Shown here: positions 37,431 through 58,712 of the stretch, piece by piece | Numbering within the stretch: the first letter of the stretch is position 1 | Layout: each line of letters starts with the position of its first letter | Origin: Bacteroidetes bacterium GWA2_40_15 | GTDB taxonomy: Bacteria > Bacteroidota > Bacteroidia > Bacteroidales > VadinHA17 | Assembly: GCA_001768195.1 (NCBI GenBank) | Contig: MENI01000014.1 | Location: 1-64,000 of the forward strand | Direction: 5' to 3' | DNA: 64,000 nucleotides | Program-made: the position numbers and the translations under genes | The notes under the pieces: model-generated | Told to the model about the DNA's origin: nothing | What the model saw: only the letters and a program-made list of their open reading frames with translations | Databases searched by the model: none

Positions 37431-38819
37431 CTATAACGAACAGACAGCCTCTATATCTTCTATTGTTTTTGGAATAGGCTTTCCCAAAACCTTATGCCCT
37501 TTTTCGGTGATAAGGACATCATCCTCGATCCGTATCCCGCCAATCGGCATGAACTTCGCGATCTTATCATAGTTTATGAATTCCTTATGCCTGGCTTCTG
37601 ATTTCCATTTTTCAATGAGCTCCGGGATAAAATAGCATCCCGGTTCTATAGTGAAAACATGTCCGGGTTTATATGGAAGGGCAAAACGGAGAAAGGCAGT
37701 ACCAAACTGTTCGCTTCGTTTAACTTCATCATTATAGCCGATAAAGTTTTCACCAAGTGCTTCCATGTCATGAACATCGAGTCCCATCATATGACCAATG
37801 CCATGAGGCATGAAGAGAGCATGAGCGCCTGCGGCAACAGCTTCATCAATATCGCCCTTCATCAATCCCAGCCCTTTCATCCCGTCAGCAATTATCCTGC
37901 AGGCGAGGAAGTGAATTTCGCGGTTCGATATGCCGGGTTTTGTTGCCTTTATGGCCTCTGTGTTTGCATTCAGAACGATCTCATAGACATCCTTCTGCAT
38001 CTGACTGAACTTACCTCCTACAGGTGTAGTCCTTGTTATGTCGGAGGCATAATGCAAATTGGTTTCGGCTCCGGCATCTGTCACCATCATTCTGTCCCTC
38101 TTAAGGATATTCCCATGCGAGTGGTTATGAAGTGTTTGTCCGTTTATGCTGAGAGTTATCGGGAATGAAGTTCCTCCGCCTTTTGCCAGGGCAATACCCT
38201 CAATGGCGCCAAAAATATCCTGCTCCTTCACCCCATGTCTGCACATTTTCATGGCAGTTACATGCATACCGTATGCAATATCGATGGCTTTCTCGATCTC
38301 ATCGATCTCTATTTTTTCCTTAACTGACCTCATCGACACGACTGCCATGATAAGCTCTACGGATGCAATTGTTTTCATCTGACATGGATTTTCCTTCAGC
38401 AGCGATCCGAGGATCATTTTTGATTCTCCCCTGTAGGGCGGGAGAAAATGCACTTTTCTTTTTTTTGCCAGTGCATCCAGGATCTTTTCTTCCAGCTTTG
38501 ACATGGGAGCAGTAATTGTAACTCCGCATTTTGCTGCGAGCTCTTTCACAGTTGGCTGAGGACCCATCCAGATTATGTCGTCCATGTCGAAATCGTTGCC
38601 AAAAACCATGTCTGTTCCTGAATCAAAATCGATCACTCCGGCAAATCCGGGATGGTCGAGTCCGAAAAAATAGAGAAAATCACTGTCCTGCCTGAAATGG
38701 TATGTATTTGCAGGATAGTTGAAAGCAGATTCATTATTACCAATAAAGAGAGCAACCCCGCTTTTCATGATCCTGCAGAGCTGCTCTCTCCTTCTCACAT
38801 ATACTTCACTTTTAAACAT
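37431..38819 (-). CDS. pepP: Xaa-Pro aminopeptidase (M24B)
   Basis: The 462-residue enzyme removes N-terminal residues next to proline. The N-terminal domain (NESAFNYPANTYHFRQDSDFLYF) is that of aminopeptidase P, and the dimetal site uses DAGAETNLHYASDITRT, HGIGHMMGLDVHD, TIEPGCYF and GIRIEDDVLI. It is cytosolic, without signal peptide. It stands alone between two intergenic gaps, with a 120-base gap to the act operon end. Confidence 0.93.
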   Translation of the reverse strand: MFKSEVYVRRREQLCRIMKSGVALFIGNNESAFNYPANTYHFRQDSDFLYFFGLDHPGFAGVIDFDSGTDMVFGNDFDMDDIIWMGPQPTVKELAAKCGVTITAPMSKLEEKILDALAKKRKVHFLPPYRGESKMILGSLLKENPCQMKTIASVELIMAVVSMRSVKEKIEIDEIEKAIDIAYGMHVTAMKMCRHGVKEQDIFGAIEGIALAKGGGTSFPITLSINGQTLHNHSHGNILKRDRMMVTDAGAETNLHYASDITRTTPVGGKFSQMQKDVYEIVLNANTEAIKATKPGISNREIHFLACRIIADGMKGLGLMKGDIDEAVAAGAHALFMPHGIGHMMGLDVHDMEALGENFIGYNDEVKRSEQFGTAFLRFALPYKPGHVFTIEPGCYFIPELIEKWKSEARHKEFINYDKIAKFMPIGGIRIEDDVLITEKGHKVLGKPIPKTIEDIEAVCSL

Positions 38820-38939: not shown

Positions 38940-39923
38940 CTACTTCTTAAGTGTCCTGAAATACTCAAGGATTTTCCTGGCCTCATCCTGAGTAAGATTC
39001 TGGTTGGCCATAGGTGCCAGGTAACGTTTTAATAATTCCTTGGCCACTGCGTCATTTTCTACCATTACATTTGGATTTAGAATCATATTCATAACCCACT
39101 CAGGGTCCCTTCTGTTTAGTACACCTAACGGGGCCGGACCAACATATTTTACAAGGGGTTTATGGCATGAAGAACATTTGGCATTAAAGAGTTCAATCCC
39201 CTGATCCACCATTGACTGATTTATTCCACCAAGAGAAATACTGGTTACAGGACCAATACCTTTAGTCCTTGGGAACTTGGTTGCTATGCGGGCTTCAAAA
39301 TCTTCATAGGATTCAGATAATGCCGGGTTAGCTCCAGCAAGAACTCTTGCTCCCAAGGGCTGACCCTGCAATTTTACTTTTATATATTCTACAATTTTCC
39401 ACCGGTCCTTCTCTGATAACGTTGCTCCATATGAACCCATCAGTCCAAATCCTATAGTCACAACATGAAACAGTTCTCCCCGGGATGACTGAACAAGTCT
39501 TTCATCCGTAAGATTGGCGGGTTTAACCGGGAGCTTTCCACTGGTTACAAGGAATCCATCGCTCTTCCCACCAATACCATGACAATTGACACAGAATGTT
39601 TCATACAATTTTTTACCTTCAAAAACATGTTTCATGGTCATTAGTTCCGGGCTTAGAAGGGTTTGACCAGCCAGAAGTCTGTTTTCGGGAACTACATCAT
39701 AGGTGAATGCAGCCATTTCTCTGGGCATTGTTCCTGACACAGGGATCTGTTGGCTCGTGCTGTCTTTAAAAACCGGATTCTCAGAATAAGCCTCATACGC
39801 TCTTGAATAAACCATATCAGGCAAAAAGTCATATCCCGGCATATTTCGGTTCCTGTCGCATGACATTACTAATATACCGGATAGAATAAATATAGAAAAT
39901 CTGATGGATATAAGTTTTATCAT
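38940..39923 (-). CDS. actE: alternative complex III cytochrome subunit ActE, fused to a second monoheme domain
   Basis: The lipoprotein (lipobox Cys22, VMSC) carries two c-type heme sites. The first, CVNCH at 111-115, lies in the ActE domain (LFHVVTIGFGLMGSYG). The second, CSSCH at 250-254, lies in a C-terminal monoheme domain ending SPMANQNLTQDEARKILEYFR-like (here LAPMANQNLT), a type I associate with cytochromes of Bacteroidota nos clusters. Usual ActE has one heme. The start is the ATG at 39923; a TTG lies two codons earlier. It is the last gene of the act-nos run. Confidence 0.85.
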   Translation of the reverse strand: MIKLISIRFSIFILSGILVMSCDRNRNMPGYDFLPDMVYSRAYEAYSENPVFKDSTSQQIPVSGTMPREMAAFTYDVVPENRLLAGQTLLSPELMTMKHVFEGKKLYETFCVNCHGIGGKSDGFLVTSGKLPVKPANLTDERLVQSSRGELFHVVTIGFGLMGSYGATLSEKDRWKIVEYIKVKLQGQPLGARVLAGANPALSESYEDFEARIATKFPRTKGIGPVTSISLGGINQSMVDQGIELFNAKCSSCHKPLVKYVGPAPLGVLNRRDPEWVMNMILNPNVMVENDAVAKELLKRYLAPMANQNLTQDEARKILEYFRTLKK

Positions 39924-39948
39924 ATTCAATTAAAGATAAGATTATTGA

Positions 39949-41130
39949 TCAGGATTCATAATTCAAACTTTCCTCAAGGAACGGATCATTTTTATTTACA
40001 AGCGGACGTGAAGCCAATGAATTGAATATAATATAAATAAACAATCCGGCGTATGAAATTGTCATACATATCTCAAGTATTCCGATCCGTGCGCTCTCGC
40101 CCACAGCGCCTGGCATTATCATCTGATAATAATCAATCCAGTGTCCGATAAGCACAAATGCAGCAACTAATGCTGCTACTCCAAGCTGTCGCTTCGACTT
40201 GAGTCGGATAAGTCCGAAAAAAGGAACTACAAAATTCAATCCCAGATTAACAAAGAAAATAATCCTGAAATTTTCCTTTCTCTGCAGAAAGTAAGTGGTT
40301 TCCTCAGGTATGTGACTATACCAGATGAGAAGATATTGTGAAAACCAGAGATAGGCCCAGAAAATGCTGAATGCAAAAAGTAAAGTACTCAGATCATGTA
40401 CATGGTCTGTCCTGATATATACAAGATGTCCAATACGTTTAAGAAACCATATAAGCAGAATTATAAACGCAAGTGAGGTAACAAACATCCCTATAAAAAC
40501 GTACCAGCCAAAAATTGTACTATACCAATGGGCATCTATAGACATTATCCAATCCCAGCTGCTGGCTGAAACAGTTACTGCATAGAAAACAAGGAATAAC
40601 CCTGCATAGAGCTTCCTTCTGTTATGATATTTCAAATCACCTGAATTCATAAGTAAATTCGAATTCTTTTTCATCATCCGGATAAGGAATATCCAGCCTG
40701 CAAAGTATAATACAAGTCTTAAAAAAAAGAACGGTATATTCAGCCAGGCTTTTTTCCCTTCAAGTATTGCATCTTGACCAGAAGAATGAGACCAGTGATA
40801 TATTTTGTCCATACCAAAGTAAACAAGGAGCATAAGGAGAAATGCAACCGGGATAAAAGTAGTCATTGATTCCGGTATTCTCTCGAGCACTGTGTGCCAT
40901 CCTGACCAGGCTATCCTGTGAACTGCAAGAAAAAATGCACTACCAAGGGCGATACCAAGAAAGAATTGGTTATTAAGAAGTATACTTGCCCAAATCCTTG
41001 AGGACCCGGGTTTAGAAAAAAAGATGGCGCCAAGTGACCCGATAATTCCAACTACAATTACTATTGCAAGTACCTGGCGGAATTGTTTCCTGAAAATAAA
41101 TTGTTCATCCATAGTTGAATATTTACTCAT
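39949..41130 (-). CDS. actF: alternative complex III membrane subunit ActF
   Basis: The 393-residue protein has about ten helices and is the quinol:cytochrome c oxidoreductase subunit of the NrfD superfamily. Typical pieces are AVHRIAWSGWHTVLERIPESMT, VSASSWDWIMSIDAHWYSTI and FSIFWAYLWFSQYLLIWY. It binds quinone together with or in place of ActC. Its ATG overlaps the actD stop by one base. It precedes actE, the reverse of the Rhodothermus order. Confidence 0.92.
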   Translation of the reverse strand: MSKYSTMDEQFIFRKQFRQVLAIVIVVGIIGSLGAIFFSKPGSSRIWASILLNNQFFLGIALGSAFFLAVHRIAWSGWHTVLERIPESMTTFIPVAFLLMLLVYFGMDKIYHWSHSSGQDAILEGKKAWLNIPFFFLRLVLYFAGWIFLIRMMKKNSNLLMNSGDLKYHNRRKLYAGLFLVFYAVTVSASSWDWIMSIDAHWYSTIFGWYVFIGMFVTSLAFIILLIWFLKRIGHLVYIRTDHVHDLSTLLFAFSIFWAYLWFSQYLLIWYSHIPEETTYFLQRKENFRIIFFVNLGLNFVVPFFGLIRLKSKRQLGVAALVAAFVLIGHWIDYYQMIMPGAVGESARIGILEICMTISYAGLFIYIIFNSLASRPLVNKNDPFLEESLNYES

Positions 41131-41639
41131 TATTTTATTGCAATAATATTAATTCCGCTAAGCGTTAATTTTATCCTGTTTCTGGCCGACTCAACATCTT
41201 CTGCACTAATAAGAATTATAAACTTATCATTTGTAATGTTTTCATCAAAAGGTATAAATTTACTATCTGGCTTAAGTTTTGATTTTATCAACATGGCAGA
41301 AACCATCCCAAGTGCGGCAAAAAGAACGGTACATTCAAATGTTATCGGGATAAAGGAGGGTGCTGAGAAGAATGGTTTTCCTCCAAATACCAGCGGATAA
41401 TTGATTGTAAATACCCAGGTCTGGAAACCAAAACCAACTATAGCTCCAAATGCTCCGAAGATAAATCCTATAAGCGGGATCCGTGACCTCTTCATGGACA
41501 ATGCCCTGTCAAGTCCATGTACCGGAAATGGTGTAAGTACATCCAGAATTTTTTCATTGCTCTCCTTTAGTTTTCCAACAGCCTCTAATAAGGGAATCTC
41601 ATCATCAAAACTGACTGAGATATAATTTATATTTTCCAT
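41130..41639 (-). CDS. actD: alternative complex III subunit ActD (DUF3341)
   Basis: The 169-residue protein has a soluble N-terminal part, two membrane helices (RIPLIGFIFGAFGAIVGFGF and the segment near CTVLFAALGMVSAM), and a C-terminal ferredoxin-like tail. FPVHGLDRALSMKRSRIP is the family signature. It is a structural subunit of the complex and sits between actC and actF with spacings of 3 bases and a 1-base overlap. Confidence 0.92.
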   Translation of the reverse strand: MENINYISVSFDDEIPLLEAVGKLKESNEKILDVLTPFPVHGLDRALSMKRSRIPLIGFIFGAFGAIVGFGFQTWVFTINYPLVFGGKPFFSAPSFIPITFECTVLFAALGMVSAMLIKSKLKPDSKFIPFDENITNDKFIILISAEDVESARNRIKLTLSGINIIAIK

Positions 41640-41642
41640 AGC

Positions 41643-43007
41643 TTAAAGATTTTCAGGATGAGTTTCTCCAACAGTTTTCACGACAGATTTTACTTCGGCA
41701 ATCGCAATCACAGGGAAGACCCGGACGAACAACAGGAATGCCGTGAAGAAAAATCCCAGTGTTCCGACAAAAAGCCCGACCTCAACGATTGTTGGTTTAT
41801 ACATTGTCCAGCTCGATGGCAGAAAATCCCTGTGAAGCGAGGTCACAACTATGACAAAGCGTTCGAACCACATGCCTATATTGATAACAATAGATAAAAA
41901 GAAGGTGAAAATAATATTGGTTCTCAGCTTTTTGATCCATAATAACTGTGGAGAAATAACATTACAGGTCATCATTATCCAGTAGGCCCACCAATAAGGT
42001 CCGGTTGCCCTGTTCATTAGTGCAAAGTGTTCATATTCAACCCCTGAATACCACGAAATGAACAATTCTGTTATATAAGCCAGACCTACAATTGAACCCG
42101 TGGCAATAAGTATTTTATTCATATTCTCAACATGACTTACTGTAATATATTCTTCCAGTTTCAATGCCTTTCTGGTGATAATCATTAGGGTTAATACCAT
42201 TGCAAAGCCAGAGAATATAGCGCCTGCAACAAAATAAGGAGGGAAAATAGTGGTATGCCATCCAGGGATAACAGATGTAGCAAAGTCCATACTAACTATA
42301 GAGTGAACAGATAAGACAAGTGGTGTTGCGAGGGCAGCCAGGAGAATTGAAGTGACTTCATGTCTGTGCCAGTGTCGTGCTGATCCTTTCCAGCCTAAAC
42401 TTAATACTTTGTAAATAGTTTTTTTAAATCCCTTTTTGATCTTGTCGCGCAAAGTGCCTAAATCAGGGATCATTCCAACATACCAGAATACAAGCGATAC
42501 GGTAAAGTAGGTAGATATTGCAAACACATCCCACACCAGAGGTGAATTAAAGTTTACCCATAAACTTCTGGTATTTGGGTAAGGAAAAATAAAGAATGCC
42601 AGTAATGCTCTTCCCATATGAATAATCGGGAAAAGCGCAGCGCAGATAACAGCAAAGATTGTCATTGCCTCTGCCGAGCGATTGATACTGGTTCTCCATT
42701 TCTGCCTGAAAAGCAGGAGTATTGCAGAAATAAAAGTTCCTGCATGTCCGATCCCGATCCACCAGACAAAATTGGTGATATCCCACGCCCAGCCTACAGT
42801 TCTGTTTTCACCAAAGGTTCCGATACCTTGCCATACTGTCCAGAAGATCATAAAAGCTCCAAACAGGAGAGCAGTTCCGGAGAGAGTTATTCCAAGATAC
42901 CATAGTTTAGCCGGTTTGTTCATCAACGGGTTGAGTAAGTCACTTGTAATACTCTGGTAAGTTTTTCTGCCCTTTATTAAAGGGATTCTTAATGGAGATT
43001 GAAACAT
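41643..43007 (-). CDS. actC: alternative complex III membrane subunit ActC (NrfD family)
   Basis: The 454-residue protein with about ten helices shows NrfD/PsrC-type motifs: WDITNFVWWIGIGHAGTFISAILLL, HMGRALLAFF and SVHSIVSMDFATSVIPGWHTTIFPPYFVAGA. It holds the main quinol site. The long N-terminal segment IKGRKTYQSITSDLL is common in ActC. It follows actB by 13 bases. Confidence 0.94.
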   Translation of the reverse strand: MFQSPLRIPLIKGRKTYQSITSDLLNPLMNKPAKLWYLGITLSGTALLFGAFMIFWTVWQGIGTFGENRTVGWAWDITNFVWWIGIGHAGTFISAILLLFRQKWRTSINRSAEAMTIFAVICAALFPIIHMGRALLAFFIFPYPNTRSLWVNFNSPLVWDVFAISTYFTVSLVFWYVGMIPDLGTLRDKIKKGFKKTIYKVLSLGWKGSARHWHRHEVTSILLAALATPLVLSVHSIVSMDFATSVIPGWHTTIFPPYFVAGAIFSGFAMVLTLMIITRKALKLEEYITVSHVENMNKILIATGSIVGLAYITELFISWYSGVEYEHFALMNRATGPYWWAYWIMMTCNVISPQLLWIKKLRTNIIFTFFLSIVINIGMWFERFVIVVTSLHRDFLPSSWTMYKPTIVEVGLFVGTLGFFFTAFLLFVRVFPVIAIAEVKSVVKTVGETHPENL

Positions 43008-43020
43008 TCTTTTAGTTTTC

Positions 43021-45990
43021 TTATGATTTATTGTTTCTGATTTTTGTCAGATAATTCACTGCTGGTTTTGTATAAAGTTCTTCCAGGAGATTATAGCGTC
43101 TTCCGCTATTGATAAGTCTGCTGATCTCACTTTCAGCATCATTCATATCACCAAATGTTATTGCATTGGCAGGACAGGTCTGTGAGCATGCTGTTTGCAC
43201 TTCAGTATCTCTGATGGCCCTCCTCTCTTCTTTTGCCTTAAGCTTAACTGATTGAATGCGCTGTATGCAGAAAGAACATTTCTCGATGACTCCCTGCGAT
43301 CTGACCGTTACATCAGGATTAAGAACCAATCTCCTAAGGTCAGATGTCATACCGGCACTGTCCCTTAAATTACCGGAAATGGTTCCTGCCTCAGTATAAT
43401 TGAACCAGTTAAACCTTCTGACTTTATAAGGACAGTTATTATTGCAATACCTTGTGCCGATGCACCTGTTGTAAACCATCTGATTAAGACCTTCAGAGCT
43501 ATGGTTTGTTGCTGCAACAGGACAAACATTCTCACATGGTGCGTTATTACAATGCTGGCAGAGAACCGGCTGGAATACAACCTCCGGATCATCTTCACTT
43601 CCGGTGTAATACCTGTCGATCCTCATCCAGTGCATCTCATGAACACGCGCTACTTCTTTCTTCCCGACAACAGGAATGTTATTTTCTGCCTGGCAGGCTA
43701 TAACACAATTTGCGCATCCTGTACATTTACTGAGATCTATAGCCATTCCCCAATGATGATGCAGGTATTCCCTTGGTTTATAGAGACTCCTGGCAGTTTC
43801 TGTAAAGTGAACATGCAGTTCATTACCTGCAACCGGATCTTTCTCATACTCTTTTAAACCAGCCTCCCGGACGAGGGCCCTTCCTTCCATACTATGATGA
43901 GTTTGGGTCTGGGCAAATGAGTACTTCTTCCCGGTTTTGACAATATCATCAATACCAGAATAGTAAGCAATATTCCCGTCTTTTAATGATGACATGGGCC
44001 ATACATCCACTCCGGTACCGTCACCGACCATTCCGCAGTTACTGCGACCATAGCCAAGAGCAACTCCGATTGTGCCATAAGCCTGACCAGGTTGTATATG
44101 AACCGGTAATTCAATACTCCTGAGGCTTATAATGTCACCATCCTCAAGTCCCAGTTCCTTTGCATGGACAGGTGAAACGCAGGCATAATTATCCCAGCAG
44201 ATCTTCGTTACAGGATCAGGCAATTCCTGAAGCCATGGATTGTTACCCTGTCTGCCTTCACCAAGCGCGATGCTTTCATATAAAACAACTTCAACTTTAC
44301 ACTGAGATTTCTGATGATTGATTTTTCCAGCGTCAAAAGGGATTGAATCTATATTCTCCTTAACACTTTCAGTCTCTGTTTTGGGGATTGCCGGTTCAAA
44401 AACTCCTTTTTGGAGCGTATTCTCAAAAAAAGCATCGCTGGTCAGGTAATCGGTCTGCTGCGACATAAAACTGCTTCCCCAGAAACCTTTCAAAAAGTCG
44501 TGGAACACTACTCCCCCACCTGACCATTTCATCAATGAATCCTGCATCTGGCGGGTGTTATAAATAGGATTTATTACAGGCTGCATCAGACTGTACTTGA
44601 ATCTTTTGGCTTCCACATCATTCCAGCTCTCGAGATAATGATGGTCAGGGCAGATATACTGTACTAATCTATTCGTTTCATCAGGAACGCATGACAAGGA
44701 TACGGTTAAGCCAACTTTCTTAACACCATCAATAAATCCTTCCCGGTCGTACCAGGTATATGCCGGGTTTACATTCCAGACAATAAGGCCATCTAATTCA
44801 CTGTTCTTCATCTTTCTGACAAGTCTTTCCATATTCTCGTCCAGACCCTTGCGTACTCTCAGATATGATTCAAAAAGGATGGTCTGCCCGACATTCCCGA
44901 GTGATTTGTTTATTTCATTAACCAGTAGTTGAACCTGCTTATCATTTGAAGCAGAAATTACAAGTGATTTCCCTTGCGAGGCAAGCAATTTCTTTGAAGT
45001 TTCACTAACATCAACAGGTGAAGGCGGTGCATCTATTTCACGATTTTCAACTGACGCTATTATATCTTTATAAAGATTCAGAAGTATTGCCGTTTCATGT
45101 GATGGTTTCATCTGTATCCGCTTGTCTGCATTGCTGCCGGTAAGGCTTTGATTTGATTCAAATTGGATCAGGTAGTTCATCCCTTTGTCCGGATCTCTTT
45201 TCGAACTGAATTGCTTGGTATATTCGACAGGAGAAAGCCATGAGCCCAGAAAGTCTGCCCCCATACTCACAATCAGGTCTGCTTTGTCAAAACGGTAGTC
45301 AGGAATAACCTGTTTACCGAAACTTAATTTATTTGCTTCGAGCATGCCGGAGAAAGAAACAGCATCATACTGAATCCATTCCGCATCAGAAAACTTCTCA
45401 AGAAAACCGGAAATAACAGCCTCAGTAGATGGACTGAAGATGGTTGGGGTTATCAGGATAATTTTACCGTTCGTCTCCATAATTATTTTTAATCTGTCTG
45501 ATATCTCTTCATCAACAGACTTCCAGTCTGATGGGGTCCCGTTTTTAAGTGGCCCATGATACCTGTTAGTATCATACAGTTCAAGAACTGATGCCTGAAC
45601 CCTGGCGCTGGTACCACCCATTGTGATGCCCGACCCGGAATTGCCCTCAATTTTTATCGGACGTCCCTCTCTTGTTTTAACCATAATACTGCAATAATCG
45701 CTGCCATTCACAAAGCTTGATGCATAATAATTTGCTTCACCAGGCGTGATCTCAAGTGGAGCAATAACATATGGAACTGCTTTCCTGACTTTCGTCTCGC
45801 AGGAGGCTAAAGCGGAAATGGCAAAGCTGTATCCGCATAATTTCAGAAAGTCTCTCCTCGAGGCAGATCCATCCTTTTTCATCCCACTGAACAGATTAAA
45901 TATAGAATTATCACCATCTCTTACTTTCGCCACCTGTAAATCTTCCTGACCACCTTTTTTTGAATTAATTTCTCTCCAGTATTTCTTCAT
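43021..45990 (-). CDS. actB: alternative complex III iron-sulfur subunit ActB
   Basis: About 989 residues. A variant twin-arginine signal SRRDFLKLCG stands near residue 45, followed by a molybdopterin-oxidoreductase-like domain that in ActB holds no cofactor. The C-terminal ferredoxin part carries four cluster motifs: CTGCANCVIAC, CQHCNNAPCENVCP, CIGTRYCNNNCP and CSFCIQR with CSQTCP. The start is the ATG at 45990; a TTG lies at 45996. It is in frame and complete, with its membrane partner next. Confidence 0.94.
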   Translation of the reverse strand: MKKYWREINSKKGGQEDLQVAKVRDGDNSIFNLFSGMKKDGSASRRDFLKLCGYSFAISALASCETKVRKAVPYVIAPLEITPGEANYYASSFVNGSDYCSIMVKTREGRPIKIEGNSGSGITMGGTSARVQASVLELYDTNRYHGPLKNGTPSDWKSVDEEISDRLKIIMETNGKIILITPTIFSPSTEAVISGFLEKFSDAEWIQYDAVSFSGMLEANKLSFGKQVIPDYRFDKADLIVSMGADFLGSWLSPVEYTKQFSSKRDPDKGMNYLIQFESNQSLTGSNADKRIQMKPSHETAILLNLYKDIIASVENREIDAPPSPVDVSETSKKLLASQGKSLVISASNDKQVQLLVNEINKSLGNVGQTILFESYLRVRKGLDENMERLVRKMKNSELDGLIVWNVNPAYTWYDREGFIDGVKKVGLTVSLSCVPDETNRLVQYICPDHHYLESWNDVEAKRFKYSLMQPVINPIYNTRQMQDSLMKWSGGGVVFHDFLKGFWGSSFMSQQTDYLTSDAFFENTLQKGVFEPAIPKTETESVKENIDSIPFDAGKINHQKSQCKVEVVLYESIALGEGRQGNNPWLQELPDPVTKICWDNYACVSPVHAKELGLEDGDIISLRSIELPVHIQPGQAYGTIGVALGYGRSNCGMVGDGTGVDVWPMSSLKDGNIAYYSGIDDIVKTGKKYSFAQTQTHHSMEGRALVREAGLKEYEKDPVAGNELHVHFTETARSLYKPREYLHHHWGMAIDLSKCTGCANCVIACQAENNIPVVGKKEVARVHEMHWMRIDRYYTGSEDDPEVVFQPVLCQHCNNAPCENVCPVAATNHSSEGLNQMVYNRCIGTRYCNNNCPYKVRRFNWFNYTEAGTISGNLRDSAGMTSDLRRLVLNPDVTVRSQGVIEKCSFCIQRIQSVKLKAKEERRAIRDTEVQTACSQTCPANAITFGDMNDAESEISRLINSGRRYNLLEELYTKPAVNYLTKIRNNKS

Positions 45991-46017
45991 ACTCAAAGTA
46001 TTTTTAATATATCTTTT

Positions 46018-47106
46018 TTATTGATGACATTTTCCGCATTCCCTTCCCCCGATCTGGGAAACCATTACACTGTCAATTTTACCGGATTGGAGTGAATCAT
46101 AATAATTCCTGTAATATATCTGGTAATACTCATTTGAAAAGTCAACTGCCCTTGTATCATGACATTTTAAACACCATCCCATTGAAAGATCTTCTTCCTG
46201 TTTAACGATATGCACATTTTTAACATCCCCATGACATTCCGTGCAATCTAACATACCTATCTTTACATGTTGCATATGGTTAAAATAGGTGAAGTCAGGA
46301 AGATTATGAATACGTATCCACCTGACAGGTATGCTGTCTTCAAAAGCCTGGGTGATTTTCCTGATCTCAAAGAACCCGGATCTGGTTCCCTCCTTAACAT
46401 GCTTGTGACAGTTCATACATAGACTTACAGCAGGAATTCCGGCATTTCTTCCTTTTAGTACCCCGGAATGACAATAATTACATTCTATTTTATTCCCTGT
46501 TGAATGAATTTGATGGGAGAACTTTATTGGTTGAACAGGGGCATAATCTTTTGCACGGTTAAAAGCAATTGTAATATCTACAATTATCACAATGAAAATT
46601 ACCCACATCAAAAAAACCATAATCTTTCTGATCAAGACCGGGATCCAATGAAATCTGCGTTTGTCAATACTCAGGCAGATTAGAATCAGAATTACCGCGA
46701 TAACCAGAATAAGTCTGATTTTAAATGGTTGCTTTGGTACAGGCAATTCTGTGTTCAGACTTGCCATGTATGAAATAATATTAACTTCATCAATTTCAGA
46801 AAGAACACATCCGTCATGCGCCTGTTTAAGTACCTTTCCTTCAGGAGCGACAAAGAATTTCCCCAATCCGTCTTTCCTGTAAAACATTACACGGGAGGCA
46901 AGTGCGGGAGCTGACGGATTCCAGTCCAGCGAATCTGGTTCTGTAAAATAATGACAATCAGCACATGTTTTCCCATCCTTGTTAAGAACCTTATTAAACA
47001 GCTTTTCCCCGGCGACGATATCTCCGGGTGTCTCCTGACAAAAAACAGTAAACCAGCTGATACTGAGTATTATTAGCAGATTGCTTAATTTTCGGGTTAT
47101 TATCAT
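46018..47106 (-). CDS. actA: alternative complex III multiheme subunit ActA with an extra N-terminal heme domain
   Basis: The 362-residue protein has a signal peptide, then a monoheme domain with CADCH at 48-52, a membrane helix (about 128-146) and second helix, and the ActA part with CNYCH, CMNCH, CTECH, CLKCH and CGKCH. That makes six hemes, where ActA normally has five in this arrangement. It begins the act block, 26 bases after nosY. The extra domain could be a fused electron carrier. Confidence 0.9.
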   Translation of the reverse strand: MIITRKLSNLLIILSISWFTVFCQETPGDIVAGEKLFNKVLNKDGKTCADCHYFTEPDSLDWNPSAPALASRVMFYRKDGLGKFFVAPEGKVLKQAHDGCVLSEIDEVNIISYMASLNTELPVPKQPFKIRLILVIAVILILICLSIDKRRFHWIPVLIRKIMVFLMWVIFIVIIVDITIAFNRAKDYAPVQPIKFSHQIHSTGNKIECNYCHSGVLKGRNAGIPAVSLCMNCHKHVKEGTRSGFFEIRKITQAFEDSIPVRWIRIHNLPDFTYFNHMQHVKIGMLDCTECHGDVKNVHIVKQEEDLSMGWCLKCHDTRAVDFSNEYYQIYYRNYYDSLQSGKIDSVMVSQIGGRECGKCHQ

Positions 47107-47132
47107 ATCTTATCAAATATTAAATCCTGAAT

Positions 47133-47915
47133 TTAAAAATCTTTTTTTCGTGCAATCTTTACAATTAGGAGTGCAGGTATCAAAATCCAGCAAAGCAACG
47201 AGATAAAAGAAATTGATATGCCTTTGAGCGTCCCAAAGAATTTGAGAAAAACTGCGCTCGTCTGACCCATCAGGGCAGAAATATCAAGTCCAAGCATTAT
47301 CATTACCCTGGAAAGATCAACGGGATTCAGAATGGTAACAGTAATAGCAAGATAATCTGTAGGGTAGTCTTTGAAAAGTATCAGAAGAATCAGCAAAAGA
47401 CCATCGTATAAAATTGCCAGGAAAAACCAGATGAATAATGCAATACTAAATCCCCGGATCCTGTCTTCATGTTTCAGGGCTATGGCGAACGCAATCGCCG
47501 ACATGCTAAAACTAAGGCAGACCCCTGCCATTAAAATCAGCAAAAAGTCAATCAAATGATCCGATGCCAGTATCCCCTGAGTTAGAAATGGAATTGAAAC
47601 TCCTGCAACAAAACTTAATGACAATGAAAGTGACAAACCAGTATATTGTCCAATGAGTAATGAGCTCCTTTTTATTGGTTGGGCAAGCAATAGCTCGGTG
47701 AACTCTCGTGAGTTATAATAAAAAATAGCTCCAAATATAATCGCAACAAGCGGGATCAGTACGGTAACTATGTTCATCATGCTTACTATCGATTTTGTCA
47801 GATCGGCGCTGAAATATAAAATAGTACTGCTAATTATGAGGAAGAAGACGAAATAAATTATCGTCCAGTAACTTCTTATCAGATTGAAAAAACTGTATTT
47901 AATAAATTTTATCAT
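47133..47915 (-). CDS. nosY: nos ABC transporter permease NosY
   Basis: About 260 residues with six helices, of the ABC-2 type. FYNSREFTELLLAQPIKRSSLLIGQYTG is the family motif and ILNPVDLSRVMIML is typical of NosY. With NosF and NosD it supplies a sulfur compound or copper for the CuZ centre of N2O reductase. The ATG at 47915 is preferred over a TTG at 47930; it overlaps the nosF end by 17 bases. Confidence 0.92.
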   Translation of the reverse strand: MIKFIKYSFFNLIRSYWTIIYFVFFLIISSTILYFSADLTKSIVSMMNIVTVLIPLVAIIFGAIFYYNSREFTELLLAQPIKRSSLLIGQYTGLSLSLSLSFVAGVSIPFLTQGILASDHLIDFLLILMAGVCLSFSMSAIAFAIALKHEDRIRGFSIALFIWFFLAILYDGLLLILLILFKDYPTDYLAITVTILNPVDLSRVMIMLGLDISALMGQTSAVFLKFFGTLKGISISFISLLCWILIPALLIVKIARKKDF

Positions 47916-48618
47916 TACCGTTCCTGTCAACTAAATGAACTATTGCGTTTTCAAGAGAACTTTCTAATGTTTCCTTAAGTATCCCCTGCAAGTCTCCCGT
48001 GAATATGATTCTGCCATCCAGTAATAAAAATATTTTGTCTGAAAATTCCTCTACAAAGCTCATAATGTGAGTTGTATATATTATGATCTTCCCCTGTTGC
48101 TTTTTTTCGAAGATCATTTTTTTGAACTTCGTCAGTGAAACAGGGTCAAGACTGTTTGTCGGCTCATCGAGAATGATAACAGGCGTATCAAACAGAAAAC
48201 CCAGCAACATATTCACCTTCTGCCTGGTACCCCCAGACAGATTTCCAAGTTTCTTTTTCATTTCCGCCTCAAGCCCGAATAGATCAATAAGTTGAAATTC
48301 ATCTGCTTCCTGGTTCCGGATATCTTTTATTAGTTTAATAACTTCAACGACCCTAAGATTATCAGGAAATCTTGCCACCTGCGGAAGATATGAAATCTCG
48401 TTCCTGTACAGGGGTGTATCCTGCACATTAATCCCATTCACCCTGATATCGCCCTTTTCAGGAATAACGAGTCCGATTATGGATTTAAGCAATGTGGTTT
48501 TTCCGGACCCATTCGGACCAAGAATTGCATAAATACCAGGATCGCTGATATTAAGGTTTATGTCTTTGAGAACATGATTTTTATTATAATGCTTATTCAG
48601 CCCCTGTATATTAATCAT
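47899..48618 (-). CDS. nosF: nos ABC transporter ATPase NosF
   Basis: The 239-residue ATPase has Walker A GPNGSGKTT at 34-42, the signature LSGGTRQKVNMLLGF and Walker B VIILDEPTNSLDP followed by the H-loop THIMSF. It overlaps nosD by 8 bases and nosY by 17. It drives the NosDFY maturation transporter. Confidence 0.95.
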   Translation of the reverse strand: MINIQGLNKHYNKNHVLKDINLNISDPGIYAILGPNGSGKTTLLKSIIGLVIPEKGDIRVNGINVQDTPLYRNEISYLPQVARFPDNLRVVEVIKLIKDIRNQEADEFQLIDLFGLEAEMKKKLGNLSGGTRQKVNMLLGFLFDTPVIILDEPTNSLDPVSLTKFKKMIFEKKQQGKIIIYTTHIMSFVEEFSDKIFLLLDGRIIFTGDLQGILKETLESSLENAIVHLVDRNGNDKIY

Positions 48619-49852
48619 TATCTATTATCTTCATTTTTGGTTTATTATCCAAAAGGTTACTCGGGGTAATAACCGGAGCAATTTTTTCAGCATAATTAAA
48701 AATGTCTACCAGAAGACTTCTCATCAGGATGGTTGCTGAATGAATATTCAGGATCATATATGAAAAAAGCGTAACCGGACGATACGGGATATCTGATATT
48801 CCATCCTTGTTCAGGTCATATCTTCCCGAATTATCACTCCAGAAATTTCCATCATAATCATTATTATTCCGGCTGCTGTTTGTAGCAACATCAAAAGTAT
48901 TACTCAGAAAATTATTCCGGTTTATATGGTTATCTGTACAACTTCCCAAAATTTTCAGCGCCCATCCATTCCGAATAAAATCGTTACTCGTAATATTTGT
49001 CCTGATCACACCCTCTCCATATATACCAATGGTATTACTTATGAAATGATTAAGTGTGATCTCACTGTCTGAAATATCTTTAAGAAGCAGGCCATAAGAT
49101 GAACTACCCCAGTTATCTGAAAATTCATTTCCCGTCATCCGGATTGTTTTTGAAAACATTACTGCTACTCCGGCTCCATTCGACACAAATTTATTGTTCA
49201 GATAAAGGTCATTATCTGAAAACATGAAATGAAGTCCATACCGCAGATTATCAACAACATAATTATTTTTGACGGTGCTGTTATCGACAAATTCAAGGTA
49301 AATTCCATCCCGGTGACCCTCCACGTGATTTCCAATAACCAAAATATTTTTACAATACCAAAGATGGATTGCGTTTCCTGAGTTCATTTCACTAACTGCC
49401 TTGCCAATTATAGTATTGTTCCTGATAATACAATCCCTGCAGCGCTCAAGGTAGATTCCGAAGAAGGTATTCTCCAGATTATTTGCTTCAATAATACAAT
49501 GAGTCCTTTTAAAAATCCTTATGGCCGCTCTTTCTTCAACATAACTTGCTCCTACATCTTTAAAGGTAAATCCTTTAATAACTACATTATCAGCCAGTAC
49601 CTGCAGGATTGAATACTTATTTTCTCCATCCAGGACAGGATTACTTATCCCTATCAGTACAATTGGGATTTTGATTTCAATAGTCCCTTCAGAATAGTGC
49701 CCCTTGTAAACCATAACAGTATCCCCCGGCCCGGCATAAGTAATAGCAACTGAGATTGACTGATAGGATTTACTCTGACCTACCTCGAGTACTGAAGCAT
49801 TAAGACTTGTACTGAGAAAAAGAGTACTATATATTATTATACGCTTAATCAA
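48611..49852 (-). CDS. nosD: periplasmic copper-processing protein NosD
   Basis: The 413-residue beta-helix protein has a signal peptide (IYSTLFLSTSLNAS) and repeated right-handed helix coils with Asn-rich NNxI turns such as RNNTIIG and KNNYVVDN, of the CASH/NosD family. It delivers metal or sulfide to NosZ with NosFY. The start is a TTG at 49852, because no ATG occurs until residue 47. It overlaps nosL by 8 bases. Confidence 0.93.
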   Translation of the reverse strand: MIKRIIIYSTLFLSTSLNASVLEVGQSKSYQSISVAITYAGPGDTVMVYKGHYSEGTIEIKIPIVLIGISNPVLDGENKYSILQVLADNVVIKGFTFKDVGASYVEERAAIRIFKRTHCIIEANNLENTFFGIYLERCRDCIIRNNTIIGKAVSEMNSGNAIHLWYCKNILVIGNHVEGHRDGIYLEFVDNSTVKNNYVVDNLRYGLHFMFSDNDLYLNNKFVSNGAGVAVMFSKTIRMTGNEFSDNWGSSSYGLLLKDISDSEITLNHFISNTIGIYGEGVIRTNITSNDFIRNGWALKILGSCTDNHINRNNFLSNTFDVATNSSRNNNDYDGNFWSDNSGRYDLNKDGISDIPYRPVTLFSYMILNIHSATILMRSLLVDIFNYAEKIAPVITPSNLLDNKPKMKIIDND

Positions 49853-50309
49853 ACTCCTTTATCGCTTTTAACTTAATTTCTTTGAAATTCTTAATAAGTT
49901 CTTCCCATGTGTACAGGTACCCACCACTGGAAGAATAAAACTCTTTTGCAACTTTGTAATCACTGAATGCAGTAAGAAAAGCTCCCATTGGACTTGGCAT
50001 CTGCCCGGAAATAAGAAAACTTGCTGTTTTAGCATCAATCAGCCGACCCGGATCTGTATAGGAAGTCACTAACAGTGTACTTGCATCCATTCCGGAATCC
50101 TCATTCTCATAGATAAACTCAATAAGACATTCAACCGAGTCGAAAGTATAAACCTTTCCTTTTGATGTAACAATTTCTGAACCATACCGCTTGTCCATAA
50201 TGAGCATTTTGCAGTGTTCACATTCATCTGACCCATATACAATGGCCCGTTCATTGACTCTGCATGAGCTAATTAAAAGCACAACATATAATAAATAGTA
50301 CTTTTTCAT
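49845..50309 (-). CDS. nosL: copper chaperone lipoprotein NosL
   Basis: The 154-residue lipoprotein (Cys16, ISSC) has the Cu(I)-binding CEHCKM motif (Cys30, Cys33, Met35) and the YTFDSVECLIEF segment of NosL. It hands copper to the NosZ assembly system. It overlaps the upstream membrane protein gene by 4 bases. Confidence 0.93.
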   Translation of the reverse strand: MKKYYLLYVVLLISSCRVNERAIVYGSDECEHCKMLIMDKRYGSEIVTSKGKVYTFDSVECLIEFIYENEDSGMDASTLLVTSYTDPGRLIDAKTASFLISGQMPSPMGAFLTAFSDYKVAKEFYSSSGGYLYTWEELIKNFKEIKLKAIKEFD

Positions 50310-50884
50310 ACCTTTTTTTGCCTTATCCCAAAAAACACTGCCAAAACACCTGAAACCATAGATAAAACTATAAAGAGAGATCCTAACATGGGAGAGGAGA
50401 TTGCCGTAAAATTCATGATAAGTTTCTTCCCGATCAGGGGGGGTTGAAATGCCATACCTTCAACCTTTATTGCTGCATCCGGATTGAGGTTGTGCCCAAA
50501 ATCATATTCCCATAAATAGAAATCGTAGAAAGCAAGGGCAATAGTTGCAACAAAAATTATAACCCAGACGAGGTTTAACTGCCATTTATTAAATACAGCC
50601 ATTATGAAAGCCATACCTGCAATTCCCAGCAGGATATATTTTATATATTTTAATTCAGGGATAGAGTCCGGTTCAATGGGCTTCATTCCAATATAGTGAT
50701 TAAGAATATTTATATTTTTAAGAGTACCTGGCTTATCACCAACTATCTTATTGGCCCATATATAGAATCCCATTCCGCGGGGATACTGGGGCGCTATTAA
50801 GGTAATTTTCCAAATAGGGAATAGTAAAACCAGAAATAGGAAAAAACCTGCTGTCAGCATTGAAATTCTTGGCAATGATATCAT
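50306..50884 (-). CDS. unknown membrane protein of the nos cluster
   Basis: The 192-residue protein has four helices: residues about 8-28, 84-100, 104-128 and 163-188. A periplasmic loop (LIAPQYPRGMGFYIWANKIVGDKPG) and a second loop near VEGMAFQPPLIGKK are conserved-looking and rich in aromatic residues. It lies between nosZ and nosL with a 4-base overlap, so it is likely to serve NosZ maturation or electron supply. I cannot assign it to a named Nos protein; a NosB-like role is possible. Confidence 0.7.
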   Translation of the reverse strand: MISLPRISMLTAGFFLFLVLLFPIWKITLIAPQYPRGMGFYIWANKIVGDKPGTLKNINILNHYIGMKPIEPDSIPELKYIKYILLGIAGMAFIMAVFNKWQLNLVWVIIFVATIALAFYDFYLWEYDFGHNLNPDAAIKVEGMAFQPPLIGKKLIMNFTAISSPMLGSLFIVLSMVSGVLAVFFGIRQKKV

Positions 50885-50990
50885 TGGTATGTCAGTTTTT
50901 AACTAATATAGTAATTATCTGTCCAGGTACAGGCAGAACATCAAGCATGTACGGGGGTGATGAAGAATTACTTAAGATAATGAAACCAAT

Positions 50991-52955
50991 TTACTCTTCA
51001 AACCCTACACTCCATTTCAGCTCAGTTTTGGAATTCTTTTCAGAAACCCTGATGTACCCCTGCATCTCCTGGTGAAGTGCAGAGCAGAAGTCCGAACAAT
51101 AAAATGGGATTACACCCGGGAATTGTGGCTTCCAGTATAGTGTTTCAGTCTGACCCGGCATGATTAAAAGTTCAGAATTTAGTGCCCCCATAACTGCAAA
51201 CCCATGAGGTACATCGAAATCCTGTTCAAGATTTGTTACATGGAAATATACTTCATCTCCAACCATGATACCTGAAATATTGTCGGGAGCAAAATGGGAG
51301 CGGATAGTTGTCATGTAGACTCTGACCACATTCCCATTCCTGACAACCTTTACTTCATTTTCAGATTTTGTTACATGAGGATGCTTGTTTTCTTCCAGTT
51401 TAAATATCTGTTTTGAATTGCTAATCAGAACTTCTGCCGGAATTGCCTGGGCATAGTGAGGTTCTCCTATAGTCGGAAAATCGAGAATTAACTCCATTTT
51501 ATCGCCTGAAATGTCAAATAACTGAGCTGCCTGGTTTAGCTCCGGACCTGTAGGCAAATACCTGTCTTTTGTTATTTTGTTCAGTGCAAGAAGATATTTG
51601 CCCCAGGGCTTTTTGGAGTCTCCGCCTGGAATCATCAGGTGTCCTATTGAGTAATAACATGGAACCCTGTCGAGAACTTCCCAGGTACCTAATTTCCATT
51701 TGATTATTTCAGATGTTATAAAAAATGATGTATATCCGTTACCATCAGCATCGAATTCAGTATGAAGCGGCCCGAGGCCTGAACTTTTAACTATCCCTGC
51801 AAGGGTGGCATCCATATCAAGTACAGGAATTCCGTATTTTTCATCATCAAACTTTTCTTCACTGATGGCTTTCAGCATCTTGGTGAAGGAATGAACAGTT
51901 AGTTCAGCGGATAGCTTTCCGGCGCCCACTATATATTCACCTGAAGGATCAACATCAACGCCGTGAGGTGATTTCGGAGTTGGAAGAAAGTAAACCAGCC
52001 CGGGGCAATTCTCCGGCTTAAGAACTTTTACCTTCCCGAATGTTTCCGTTGAAGCAGAATGTGTCGCTTCATCATAGTAATTCCTTATATAAGGAGAATT
52101 CATTTCTTCAAATTTGCCTTCGGCAATATACTGTTCGGCAAGTTTCCAGTTTACGGCAGCAATATAGTCTTTATCATTCTTTGAAGCCTGTACCTCGAGA
52201 AGGGAATTGCTTTCCTCGGTGTTATAACATGTAAAGAATGTCCAACCATTTGAAGCATTTTTCCCTGAATGTGCAAGGTCATAATCAAATCCGGGCATAA
52301 GTATCTGGAAAGCTATGTTCATCCTGCCATCATTTTCAACTTTTACAAAAGATAATGTTCCTTTGTATTTACCGGTGTATTCATTCATTGAAATATCCTG
52401 TTGCGGAACCGGAACGCTAAATCGTGTCCCGGCAACTACATAGTCGGTGTTTTCAGTAGTAAATGGAGAACTGTGATTACCTGAACTGTTTGGCAATTCA
52501 ATGATCTCAACGGTTTCAAATGTTGTAAGATCTATCCTCGCAATTCTTGGAGTGTTATTACCATTAATGAATAACCACCTGCCATCAGGTATCCCGTCGG
52601 TCTGAGATAGCTCAGGGTGATGCGCATCATCCCAGGGTACGAATCCATAGGTTGTTTCCAGCATAGGTTTGGTCTCTTCATTGAAACCATATGCTTTTTC
52701 AGCATCAACTGAGAATACCGGGATCACTTTTAGCAGCCTCCCTGAAGGGAGTCCATAGACACTTACCTGGCCACTGAAACCGCCAGACAGGAAGGCATAA
52801 TATTCATCCAGTTCACCCGGAGCCACATACACTTTTTGCGCAGCTACGCCAGAGCCCAATGGCCCTTTTGATCCGTTTTTATCACCTGAACAGGAGGCGA
52901 TAAGAATGATAGAAAATGTAAAAAGGATCAGATTTCTGAGAAGTTGTAATTTCAT
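50991..52955 (-). CDS. nosZ: nitrous oxide reductase, Sec-type (clade II) NosZ lipoprotein
   Basis: The 654-residue enzyme reduces N2O to N2 outside the inner membrane. The signal ends in a lipobox Cys22 (LIASC) with no twin-arginine, as in clade II NosZ. The CuZ domain has the first His cluster in DDAHHPE (112-113) and further His residues in SPHGVDVDPSGEY and EPHYAQA. The C-terminal CuA domain has CSDFCSALHQEM (Cys620, Cys624, His628, Met631). Length is normal. It follows an Rrf2-family regulator and precedes the maturation genes. Confidence 0.97.
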   Translation of the reverse strand: MKLQLLRNLILFTFSIILIASCSGDKNGSKGPLGSGVAAQKVYVAPGELDEYYAFLSGGFSGQVSVYGLPSGRLLKVIPVFSVDAEKAYGFNEETKPMLETTYGFVPWDDAHHPELSQTDGIPDGRWLFINGNNTPRIARIDLTTFETVEIIELPNSSGNHSSPFTTENTDYVVAGTRFSVPVPQQDISMNEYTGKYKGTLSFVKVENDGRMNIAFQILMPGFDYDLAHSGKNASNGWTFFTCYNTEESNSLLEVQASKNDKDYIAAVNWKLAEQYIAEGKFEEMNSPYIRNYYDEATHSASTETFGKVKVLKPENCPGLVYFLPTPKSPHGVDVDPSGEYIVGAGKLSAELTVHSFTKMLKAISEEKFDDEKYGIPVLDMDATLAGIVKSSGLGPLHTEFDADGNGYTSFFITSEIIKWKLGTWEVLDRVPCYYSIGHLMIPGGDSKKPWGKYLLALNKITKDRYLPTGPELNQAAQLFDISGDKMELILDFPTIGEPHYAQAIPAEVLISNSKQIFKLEENKHPHVTKSENEVKVVRNGNVVRVYMTTIRSHFAPDNISGIMVGDEVYFHVTNLEQDFDVPHGFAVMGALNSELLIMPGQTETLYWKPQFPGVIPFYCSDFCSALHQEMQGYIRVSEKNSKTELKWSVGFEE

Positions 52956-53014
52956 GGTACTTAATTTAATGTTGATAAATAATTATATATAATAGTCACT
53001 GTAATAAACCCTGG

Positions 53015-53452
53015 TCATTCCAACTTCAAGGTATCCCCGACCCTCCTGTAATCTTCAGCAAGCATGCTTAAATTAACTGCCTCCATCCGTGACCTTATAA
53101 TAATATTCAGGTTGCTCCAGAACATCCTGAGGACACAATTCTGTTCTCTTGGACACTCTTTACCGGGTGAGAGGCAATCAATTATCGACAGGTCACCCTC
53201 AAAGGCAAGATATACATCATAGATTGTGATATCACCGGAAGGCCTGTTCAATCTGTAGCCGCTTTTTTTCCCGCCAGCATTGACGATCAGACCTGCAGCT
53301 TTCAGGGAAGCTATAATTTGATCAAGATACTTTACTGATACATCCTGATTTTCAGCAATTTCTTTTTGTAGTATCCCTCCCCCCATATTCTCCCTTAAGG
53401 ATAATTCCAGCATAGTTCTTAAACCATATCTTGTTTTTGAATTGAATTTCAT
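53015..53452 (-). CDS. Rrf2-family regulator, likely Fe-S cluster/NO sensor of the nos-act operon
   Basis: The 145-residue winged-helix protein has the Rrf2 N-terminus NSKTRYGLRTMLELSLRE and the helix VSVKYLDQIIASLKAAGLI. Three Cys, at positions 93, 100 and 106, have the spacing of the Fe-S-binding IscR/NsrR group. An NsrR-like response to nitric oxide would fit the genes it precedes. The gap to nosZ is only 59 bases. Confidence 0.85.
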   Translation of the reverse strand: MKFNSKTRYGLRTMLELSLRENMGGGILQKEIAENQDVSVKYLDQIIASLKAAGLIVNAGGKKSGYRLNRPSGDITIYDVYLAFEGDLSIIDCLSPGKECPREQNCVLRMFWSNLNIIIRSRMEAVNLSMLAEDYRRVGDTLKLE

Positions 53453-53467
53453 ATATTTTTACACTTT

Positions 53468-53486
53468 TCCTACTATTTTAATAGGA
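53468..53486. promoter_or_regulatory. imperfect dyad upstream of the Rrf2 gene
   Basis: Outer arms TCCTA and TAGGA are separated by nine bases, in an AT-rich context 16 bases before the regulator's start. It is the size of an Rrf2 site, but the match to a known consensus was not tested. Confidence 0.3.
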
Positions 53487-53770
53487 TAAATGTAGAGTTT
53501 TTTTTTCTTTAACAAAATAGTTCTTATAAAATTTTATCAGACCAATGAAAAAAAATTATGAGTATCAGGAATCATGTATATAAATTCATTGATTTTCAAG
53601 CGATTTCGAATCTAATATTCATGATTGCCGATAGTCATTAGAAAAATTAACCGTGTGATGGAGTGAGTTTTGGTTGATATACTCAATTATAGCAAACTAG
53701 TTTTTATGATGATATTGTCTTTTAATATACATTGGTGAGTTATCAATTTAATATATCGCATTTTGATGCA

Positions 53771-58114: not shown

Positions 58115-58136
58115 ATTTAAATGGTTTCCAGTTTAT

Positions 58137-58700: not shown

Positions 58701-58712
58701 TTGTAATAATTT

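Follow-up and report, generated by a model that had tools for sequence, protein, structure and literature searches.

An alternative complex III gene set joined to a clade II nos cluster, with ActE fused to a NosZ-partner cytochrome, in a Bacteroidales genome

Introduction

Clade II NosZ is a biological sink for nitrous oxide (N2O), and to our knowledge little is known about electron delivery to it outside Wolinella-type systems. In Wolinella succinogenes, a monoheme cytochrome domain fused to the reductase (cNosZ) donates to NosZ, NosB is present, and the quinol side is made up of NosG/H and a bc complex. Here we analyze a 64,000-nucleotide stretch of the genome of Bacteroidetes bacterium GWA2_40_15 (contig MENI01000014.1, positions 1 to 64,000; "the window"), in which a clade II nos cluster runs directly into the genes of an alternative complex III (ACIII), a predicted quinol:cytochrome c oxidoreductase. 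Like W. succinogenes, this locus has NosB and a monoheme cytochrome domain; unlike it, the domain is fused to the ACIII subunit ActE rather than to NosZ, and the quinol side is ACIII.

In ACIII of known structure, electrons pass from quinol at ActC to FeS1 of ActB, then to the ActA hemes and to ActE (PMC5928083 and PMC8552683). ActE is usual in ACIII, but clusters without it exist. In Flavobacterium johnsoniae it is dispensable for the aa3 oxidase, and one possibility put forward by the authors is that the electron path divides at ActA/ActE, with one branch leading to an acceptor not yet identified; the purpose of the ActE branch is an open question in print (PMC8552683). A nos cluster beside ACIII genes is already known, the published precedent being Methylacidiphilum caldifontis IT6 (PMC11102522). 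Melioribacter has an Rrf2-nos cluster, its ACIII being described beside oxidase genes instead (PMC3534657), and six-gene clusters next to nar genes, for which the authors propose another complex, we read as ACIII-like (PMC10732223). The NosG/C1/C2/H proteins of W. succinogenes are named in PMC11102522 and PMC9697520. The available text of PMC10390337, PMC9426454, PMC8076601, and PMC5317091 contains nothing on a nos-ACIII join, and we found no report of a two-heme ActE or a NosZ-private ACIII set in the parts of the literature surveyed. What is new here is a two-heme ActE fusion within a nos-linked ACIII.

Results

The run occupies 38940-53452 on the minus strand of the window and consists of 13 intact open reading frames (ORFs) in the order rrf2-nosZ-nosB-nosL-nosD-nosF-nosY-actA-actB-actC-actD-actF-actE. 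The original prediction, made from the sequence alone, had described such an unbroken same-strand run, with spacings that were mostly overlaps or under 30 bases and at most 106; this is correct, with one further gap of 59 bp to be added. In the nos part, rrf2 and nosZ are 59 bp apart and nosZ and nosB 106 bp (the largest gap), followed by overlaps of 4 bp (nosB-nosL), 8 bp (nosL-nosD), 8 bp (nosD-nosF), and 32 bp (nosF-nosY, a value that depends on a TTG start). The nos/act junction, nosY-actA, spans 26 bp. Spacings in the act part are 21 bp (actA-actB), 13 bp (actB-actC), and 3 bp (actC-actD), then a 1-bp overlap (actD-actF) and 19 bp (actF-actE).

Identical nos-act order recurs in two further genomes, CSMAG_193 (G370, locus L044) and HyVt-375 (G131, loci L118/L122/L123), so the run is neither a chance arrangement nor a slip of assembly. 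The L044 contig begins within nosZ and ends within actE, cutting ActE at residue 283; the G131 cluster is made up of L123 and L122, with a contig break inside actB. The join is common to two families of the order (f1 and f15), and the proteins are down to 50 to 86% identical.

The window's actE (38940-39929, minus strand) encodes a 329-amino-acid protein in which, by heme motifs and the homology of both domains, an ActE is fused to a NosZ-partner cytochrome. The N-domain (residues ∼1 to 200, CxxCH at 113) is an ActE-type monoheme domain, 41 to 45% identical to the genome's two other ActE proteins, which are 205 and 197 amino acids long with one heme motif each. The C-domain (residues ∼206 to 329, CxxCH at 252) adds a second heme, which sets the protein apart from the typical ACIII sub-type, in which ActE has no further heme domain. 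In a table of 68 loci (the window included, most Bdellovibrionales left out), 60 yielded an ActE N-domain; 57 of these have one heme motif, and two motifs occur in the window, L044, and L122 only. Among the 393 genomes of the order, 61 gave any ActE-type match at 1e-25, and three (this genome, G131, and G370) have both domains in one frame, all of them nos-linked.

The C-domain is homologous to a free cytochrome (40 to 62% identity; E values down to 3e-48), a monoheme, lipoprotein-like protein of 149 to 182 amino acids whose gene directly precedes nosZ in all 10 of the other nos clusters examined from the order whose NosZ is of this type, with at least 900 bits (L126, L128-L132, and L134-L137). 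Seven divergent NosZ proteins of the order (L029-L035, of which L035 is incomplete) have a C-terminal domain that is a more distant match (26 to 34%, E values of 2e-13 to 1e-8). By these homologies, the cytochrome domain is found in three settings: free beside nosZ, fused to NosZ, and fused to ActE. In the window and in L123, the gene directly upstream of nosZ is rrf2 and there is no separate cytochrome gene (in L044, whose contig begins inside nosZ, this position cannot be inspected). No separate gene for a c-type cytochrome or for NosG/H, frequent though not defining members of clade II nos clusters, lies within 38940-53452; the free cytochrome is missing from the nos run because it is fused to ActE. 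Because ActE carries a cytochrome that stands free beside nosZ in many relatives, the complex looks purpose-built for NosZ. As a separate observation, four pairs of loci (L030/L036, L031/L038, L032/L041, and L034/L040) hold tandem NosZ-like proteins, in which a NosZ of ∼790 to 900 amino acids with a C-terminal cytochrome domain adjoins another NosZ-like protein that scores under the TIGR04246 cut-off.

The remaining act genes, all on the minus strand, complete the ACIII. ActA (46018-47106; 362 amino acids) has six CxxCH motifs (at residues 48, 209, 230, 288, 312, and 357), which form an N-terminal monoheme domain and a pentaheme part, and matches 6BTM_A over residues 182-361 (1.7e-45). ActB (43021-45996; 991 amino acids, with molybdopterin-fold and iron-sulfur [Fe-S] halves) matches 6BTM_B (4.9e-206), and ActF (39949-41130) matches 6BTM_F (1.1e-79); for all three, the best of the matching chains from solved ACIII structures belong to 6BTM, the F. 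johnsoniae complex. ActC (41643-43007) is the NrfD-type quinol-binding subunit (PF03916, 2.1e-22), 56 to 58% identical to the genome's two other ActC proteins, and ActD (41130-41639) matches PF11821 (2.1e-50). Pentaheme ActA, ActB, ActC, ActD, and ActF thus stand in one cluster by Pfam, PDB matches, and heme motifs.

The nos genes lie on the same strand. The rrf2-family regulator (53015-53452; 145 amino acids) is identified by PF02082 (2.2e-31) and TIGR00738 (102.7 bits, cut-off 73.3); its product has three clustered cysteines, which we take to be of the Fe-S sensor type, and a 58% homologue occupies the same position in L123. NosZ (50991-52955; 654 amino acids) is a clade II, Sec-type N2O reductase well over the TIGR04246 cut-off (912.8 bits against 625), with a CuA-type loop, CSDFC, at residue 620 and an N-terminus that, judged by eye, resembles a lipoprotein signal; it is single copy, giving one match in the genome. 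NosL (49845-50309) and NosD (48611-49852) are recognized by PF05573 (1.5e-17) and TIGR04247 (401 bits, cut-off 300), and the ABC ATPase NosF (47899-48618) by PF00005, its position, and homologues in nos clusters. The ABC permease encoded at 47133-47930 scores exactly at the threshold of PF12679 (ABC2_membrane_2; 27.2 of 27.2 bits), so we named it NosY by its position, with homologues in agreement. The 192-amino-acid membrane protein encoded at 50306-50884 carries the motifs LNHYIGM and FGHN, which correspond to those given for NosB, LNHYIGM and YGHN (PMC9697520), and related clusters have a homologue of it between nosZ and nosL. It is therefore NosB and not something new: here the original prediction, which had listed an unknown membrane protein and had contrasted the locus with clade II clusters that use NosB, was mistaken on both counts. 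With nosB between nosZ and nosL/nosD, a Sec-type NosZ, and no nosR or nosX in the run, the nos part of the locus is a clade II cluster, and it adjoins an ACIII. In L044 (1870-5230) and L123 (10385-13811), 3.4 kb separates nosB from nosL, an insert that the window lacks; the L044 insert codes for a TonB-dependent receptor and a YtkA-like protein, which may act in copper uptake.

The genome (4.77 Mb in 127 contigs, 99.98% complete with 1.06% contamination) gives five matches to the window's ActC: the window itself, one on contig C26 (56%), one on C15 (58%), one on C52 (30%), and a partial one on C15 (28%). We did not accept the last two as further ActC proteins. Three complete-looking ACIII sets are present. 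Besides the nos-linked one, C26 holds a full actA-B-C-D-E-F set, convergent with a heme-copper oxidase cluster (COX1 by Pfam; sco, cox3, cox2, and ctaB named from reading the translations); this is the second act copy near an oxidase that the original prediction had suggested looking for. On C15 (L007/L008), actA-B-C-D-E-F lies near genes for YceI, small cytochromes, DUF5777, a ResB/cytochrome c assembly protein, and Crp-type regulators; ActA of this set has seven heme motifs and an extra N-terminal cytochrome domain. The possibility that the window holds the genome's only ACIII and that this serves an oxidase, raised at the outset as what would refute a dedicated ACIII, is ruled out because two other sets exist, one of them oxidase linked. 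The bc1 cytochrome b family, PF00033, has no match in the genome; the same search was positive in 9 of 14 control genomes.

In trees of NosZ, ActA, and ActE, the three nos-linked clusters form a clade at 100/100, each time as window + (L044, G131); because the trees agree, the nos genes appear to move together with those for the heme subunits. Five cox-linked ACIII sets of Bacteroidales metagenome-assembled genomes (MAGs; L042, L043, L045, L046, and L072, three of them titled fen) look like chimeras, in which a nos-type ActBCDF core is combined with a C26-type ActA N-terminus and ActE. In L042, L043, and L046, the core resembles that of the window roughly as much as do the other nos-linked sets (ActB 68 to 69%, ActC 81 to 82%, ActD 62 to 67%, ActF 63 to 69%). 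The nearest relatives of the chimeras' ActE (60 to 63%) and ActA (55 to 58%) outside the group are the oxidase-linked C26 copies of the genome analyzed here. The window's ActA and ActE are 41 to 45% identical to those of the same three chimeras, against 62 to 82% for the core. The crossovers, as located by sliding identity, fall within actA and close to where actE starts. The case for chimeras is built on conflict between subunits: a grouping of C26 with the chimeras is rejected for ActF by the approximately unbiased (AU) test (p 7e-92) and is recovered for ActE (100/99) and the ActA N-domain (97/96). The ActC tree groups the window with the chimeras at a support of only 86, and each of the five genomes has one ActE match. 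Since these sets pair a nos-type core with oxidase-type heme ends beside an oxidase, the quinol core appears to be exchangeable and the heme ends to follow the partner.

We asked how widespread the arrangement is in a phylum sample of 395 genomes, of which 128, including this one, have a NosZ match at 1e-150 (127 over the cut-off). ActC is present at 1e-70 in all 127 other nosZ genomes (80 of 80 plus 47 of 47), as a single row in 122. None of these ActC genes was seen within 20 kb of nosZ, the nearest lying 20.2 kb away, where the distance could be read for the 34 of 132 ActC rows that share a contig with nosZ (the other 98 are on another contig). Because ActC accompanies nosZ throughout, ACIII probably feeds NosZ generally in Bacteroidota, and the join does not mark this organism as alone in using ACIII for NosZ; what is unusual here is that the ACIII copy is private, that its genes are joined to nos, and that the cytochrome is fused. 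As for the C-domain cytochrome, 49 of 56 rows in the phylum sample have nosZ no more than 3 kb downstream, as measured between low coordinates; two of the others are far off on the nosZ contig, and five are on another contig or in a genome without a nosZ match. Within the order, where nosZ neighborhoods were covered for 11 of 18 other nosZ genomes (the remaining seven are divergent NosZ on short loci, L029-L041), G271 carries a set of act genes ∼3 kb beyond nosY, encoded on the opposite strand, and its cytochrome is still free. Genome searches for nos-act joins covered Bacteroidota; other phyla were reached through an ActB contig scan of 84,980 species genomes, whose patterns, built from the window's ActB, favor close kin and reached some Bdellovibrionales and Myxococcales. 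Among the best 80 of its 98 loci, nosZ occurs in one (L044) and cox1 in 38.

On the minus strand just upstream of rrf2 (53465-53489) lies a dyad, TTATCCTA-N9-TAGGAAAA, which is a candidate Rrf2 operator only. The form TTATCCTA-N9-TAGGA is shared upstream of rrf2 in the window and L123. Exact TCCTA-N9-TAGGA occurs at 5 of 169 loci, four being copies of the window and L123 sites and the fifth L059. The window dyad's score is within chance, being reached by 171 of 300 shuffles (11 of 300 for L123), and with up to three mismatches the window holds 4 matches against 3.8 expected. At the nosY-actA junction, where a terminator would have spoken against a shared transcript, a pattern scan found no terminator-like site on this strand; a gap of 26 bp leaves little room for one. 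By its total counts, such scanning is uninformative (60 promoters against 49.6 expected; 17 terminators against 13.7). Co-transcription of the run is predicted.

Past the actE end, 120 bp on and on the same strand, lies an M24 aminopeptidase gene (37431-38819); since the next terminator-like site found on that strand by the pattern scan is beyond this gene, it may share the actE transcript. Beyond the rrf2 end, 55877-59414 codes for proteins of the qNOR, hemerythrin, and Fe-S repair (RIC) types; the same contig encodes another protein of qNOR type just past the window (L015:815-3112).

Discussion

We consider it quite probable that Rrf2 controls all 13 genes as a single respiratory unit, which provides a private electron line from menaquinol to N2O. 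Menaquinol would be oxidized at ActC/ActB; the pentaheme part of ActA would carry electrons from ActB to heme 1 of ActE, which would pass them through the tethered ActE heme 2 to CuA of NosZ, perhaps with energy conserved along the way, and NosB-L-D-F-Y would serve NosZ maturation and copper loading. The last step, from ActE heme 2 to CuA, is suggested by the second heme of ActE, a NosZ-partner cytochrome held on a tether. That this ACIII is dedicated to N2O reduction, as first proposed, finds support in the oxidase-linked second ACIII, the ActE fusion, and the 100/100 clades of NosZ, ActA, and ActE.

A more far-reaching version, which we hold tentatively and would not yet bet on, is that the three clusters encode an ACIII-NosZ respirasome, a quinol:N2O oxidoreductase whose tethered cytochrome shuttles between ActE and NosZ, and that ACIII has two exits. 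The tie between ACIII and NosZ is known here from gene linkage and the fusion, a physical complex being predicted. If this is so, the unidentified acceptor of the ActE branch in PMC8552683 would be the free nosZ-linked cytochrome together with NosZ; the ActA N-terminal heme would lead to the oxidase and ActE to N2O reductase, and the modules would be swapped by recombination as partners change.

Several findings weigh against a private electron line. NosZ could be supplied by the two remaining ACIII sets as well, and the window's ACIII could feed other acceptors. All three nos-act genomes are draft assemblies, two of them titled MAG. In the AU test, a grouping of the chimeras with the nos trio is not rejected for ActE (p 0.21) or the ActA N-domain (p 0.095), and in the last 230 residues of ActA, the pentaheme part, the chimeras stand next to the nos trio (92/91); this placement fits a crossover inside actA and is no proof of one. 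In an AlphaFold2 model of ActE (18-row alignment), the N-domain is confident, the linker weak, and the C-domain helical but of modest confidence; because the block means of the C-domain are 48 to 73, we did not use the model as evidence of fold. Finally, the nosZ-linked C-domain cytochrome was found at an E value of 1e-25 in 49 of the 127 other nosZ genomes and not in 78, where it may be absent, more diverged, or replaced; this slightly lowered our confidence in both the private line and the respirasome.

It is also conceivable, though in our judgment unlikely, that the nos-linked ACIII with its two-heme ActE is a general menaquinol oxidase supplying an oxidase or other periplasmic acceptors too, that NosZ is equally fed by the other two ACIII sets, and that the genes were joined through shared regulation under anoxia. 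Such a nonexclusive hub would suit the window's ActA, which retains the N-terminal sixth heme thought to serve cytochrome aa3 in F. johnsoniae (PMC8552683), and it is in keeping with the phylum sample: because ActC there is mostly single and was not seen near nosZ in any of these genomes, it must be common for one ACIII to be shared. Against it, this genome has a separate ACIII linked to an oxidase, its nos cluster contains no free NosZ-partner cytochrome, that protein being fused to this very ActE instead, and the window's ActA and ActE have diverged from those of the oxidase-linked chimeras far more than the shared core has. That a nos cluster simply landed upstream of an ACIII operon and that the ActE extension is an unrelated cytochrome is very improbable, since, even if the placement of nos inside the ACIII cluster of M. 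caldifontis IT6 has been ascribed to horizontal transfer (PMC11102522), the join described here has been kept across two families despite the divergence of its proteins, the trees of NosZ, ActA, and ActE are congruent, and the cytochrome that extends ActE is specifically the one linked to nosZ.

With the private menaquinol-to-N2O line as the preferred reading, the locus offers a concrete candidate both for electron delivery to NosZ and for the ActE branch, in that the last ACIII heme is joined to the nosZ-side cytochrome. The two-heme ActE would also serve as a sequence marker for genomes in which an ACIII is given over to N2O.

Among described systems, that of M. caldifontis IT6 likewise has nos and ACIII genes together, with nos inside the ACIII cluster; unlike the window, it has aa3 and cbb3 genes adjacent and separate nosC genes, and the available description, on which this comparison is based, makes no mention of a fused ActE (PMC11102522). 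Flavobacterium azooxidireducens shares the nosZ-B-L-D-F-Y order and a clade II Sec NosZ (PMC9697520). The ten same-type Bacteroidota nos loci share these features as well as the homologous cytochrome, but in them the cytochrome is free upstream of nosZ and no same-strand act genes adjoin nosY. The ACIII of Rhodothermus marinus (6F0K) also has ActE as its last heme, which is proposed to reduce a partner reductase directly within a supercomplex; its ActA has five hemes and the extra cytochrome is on the caa3 oxidase, whereas in the window it is on ActE (PMC5928083). Finally, the window's ACIII resembles that of the F. johnsoniae ACIII-aa3 supercomplex (6BTM) in its six subunits, the sixth, N-terminal heme of ActA, and a lipid-anchored ActE, but where the F. 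johnsoniae complex has aa3 as partner and a one-heme ActE, the window has nos neighbors and an ActE with a second, NosZ-partner heme domain (PMC8552683).

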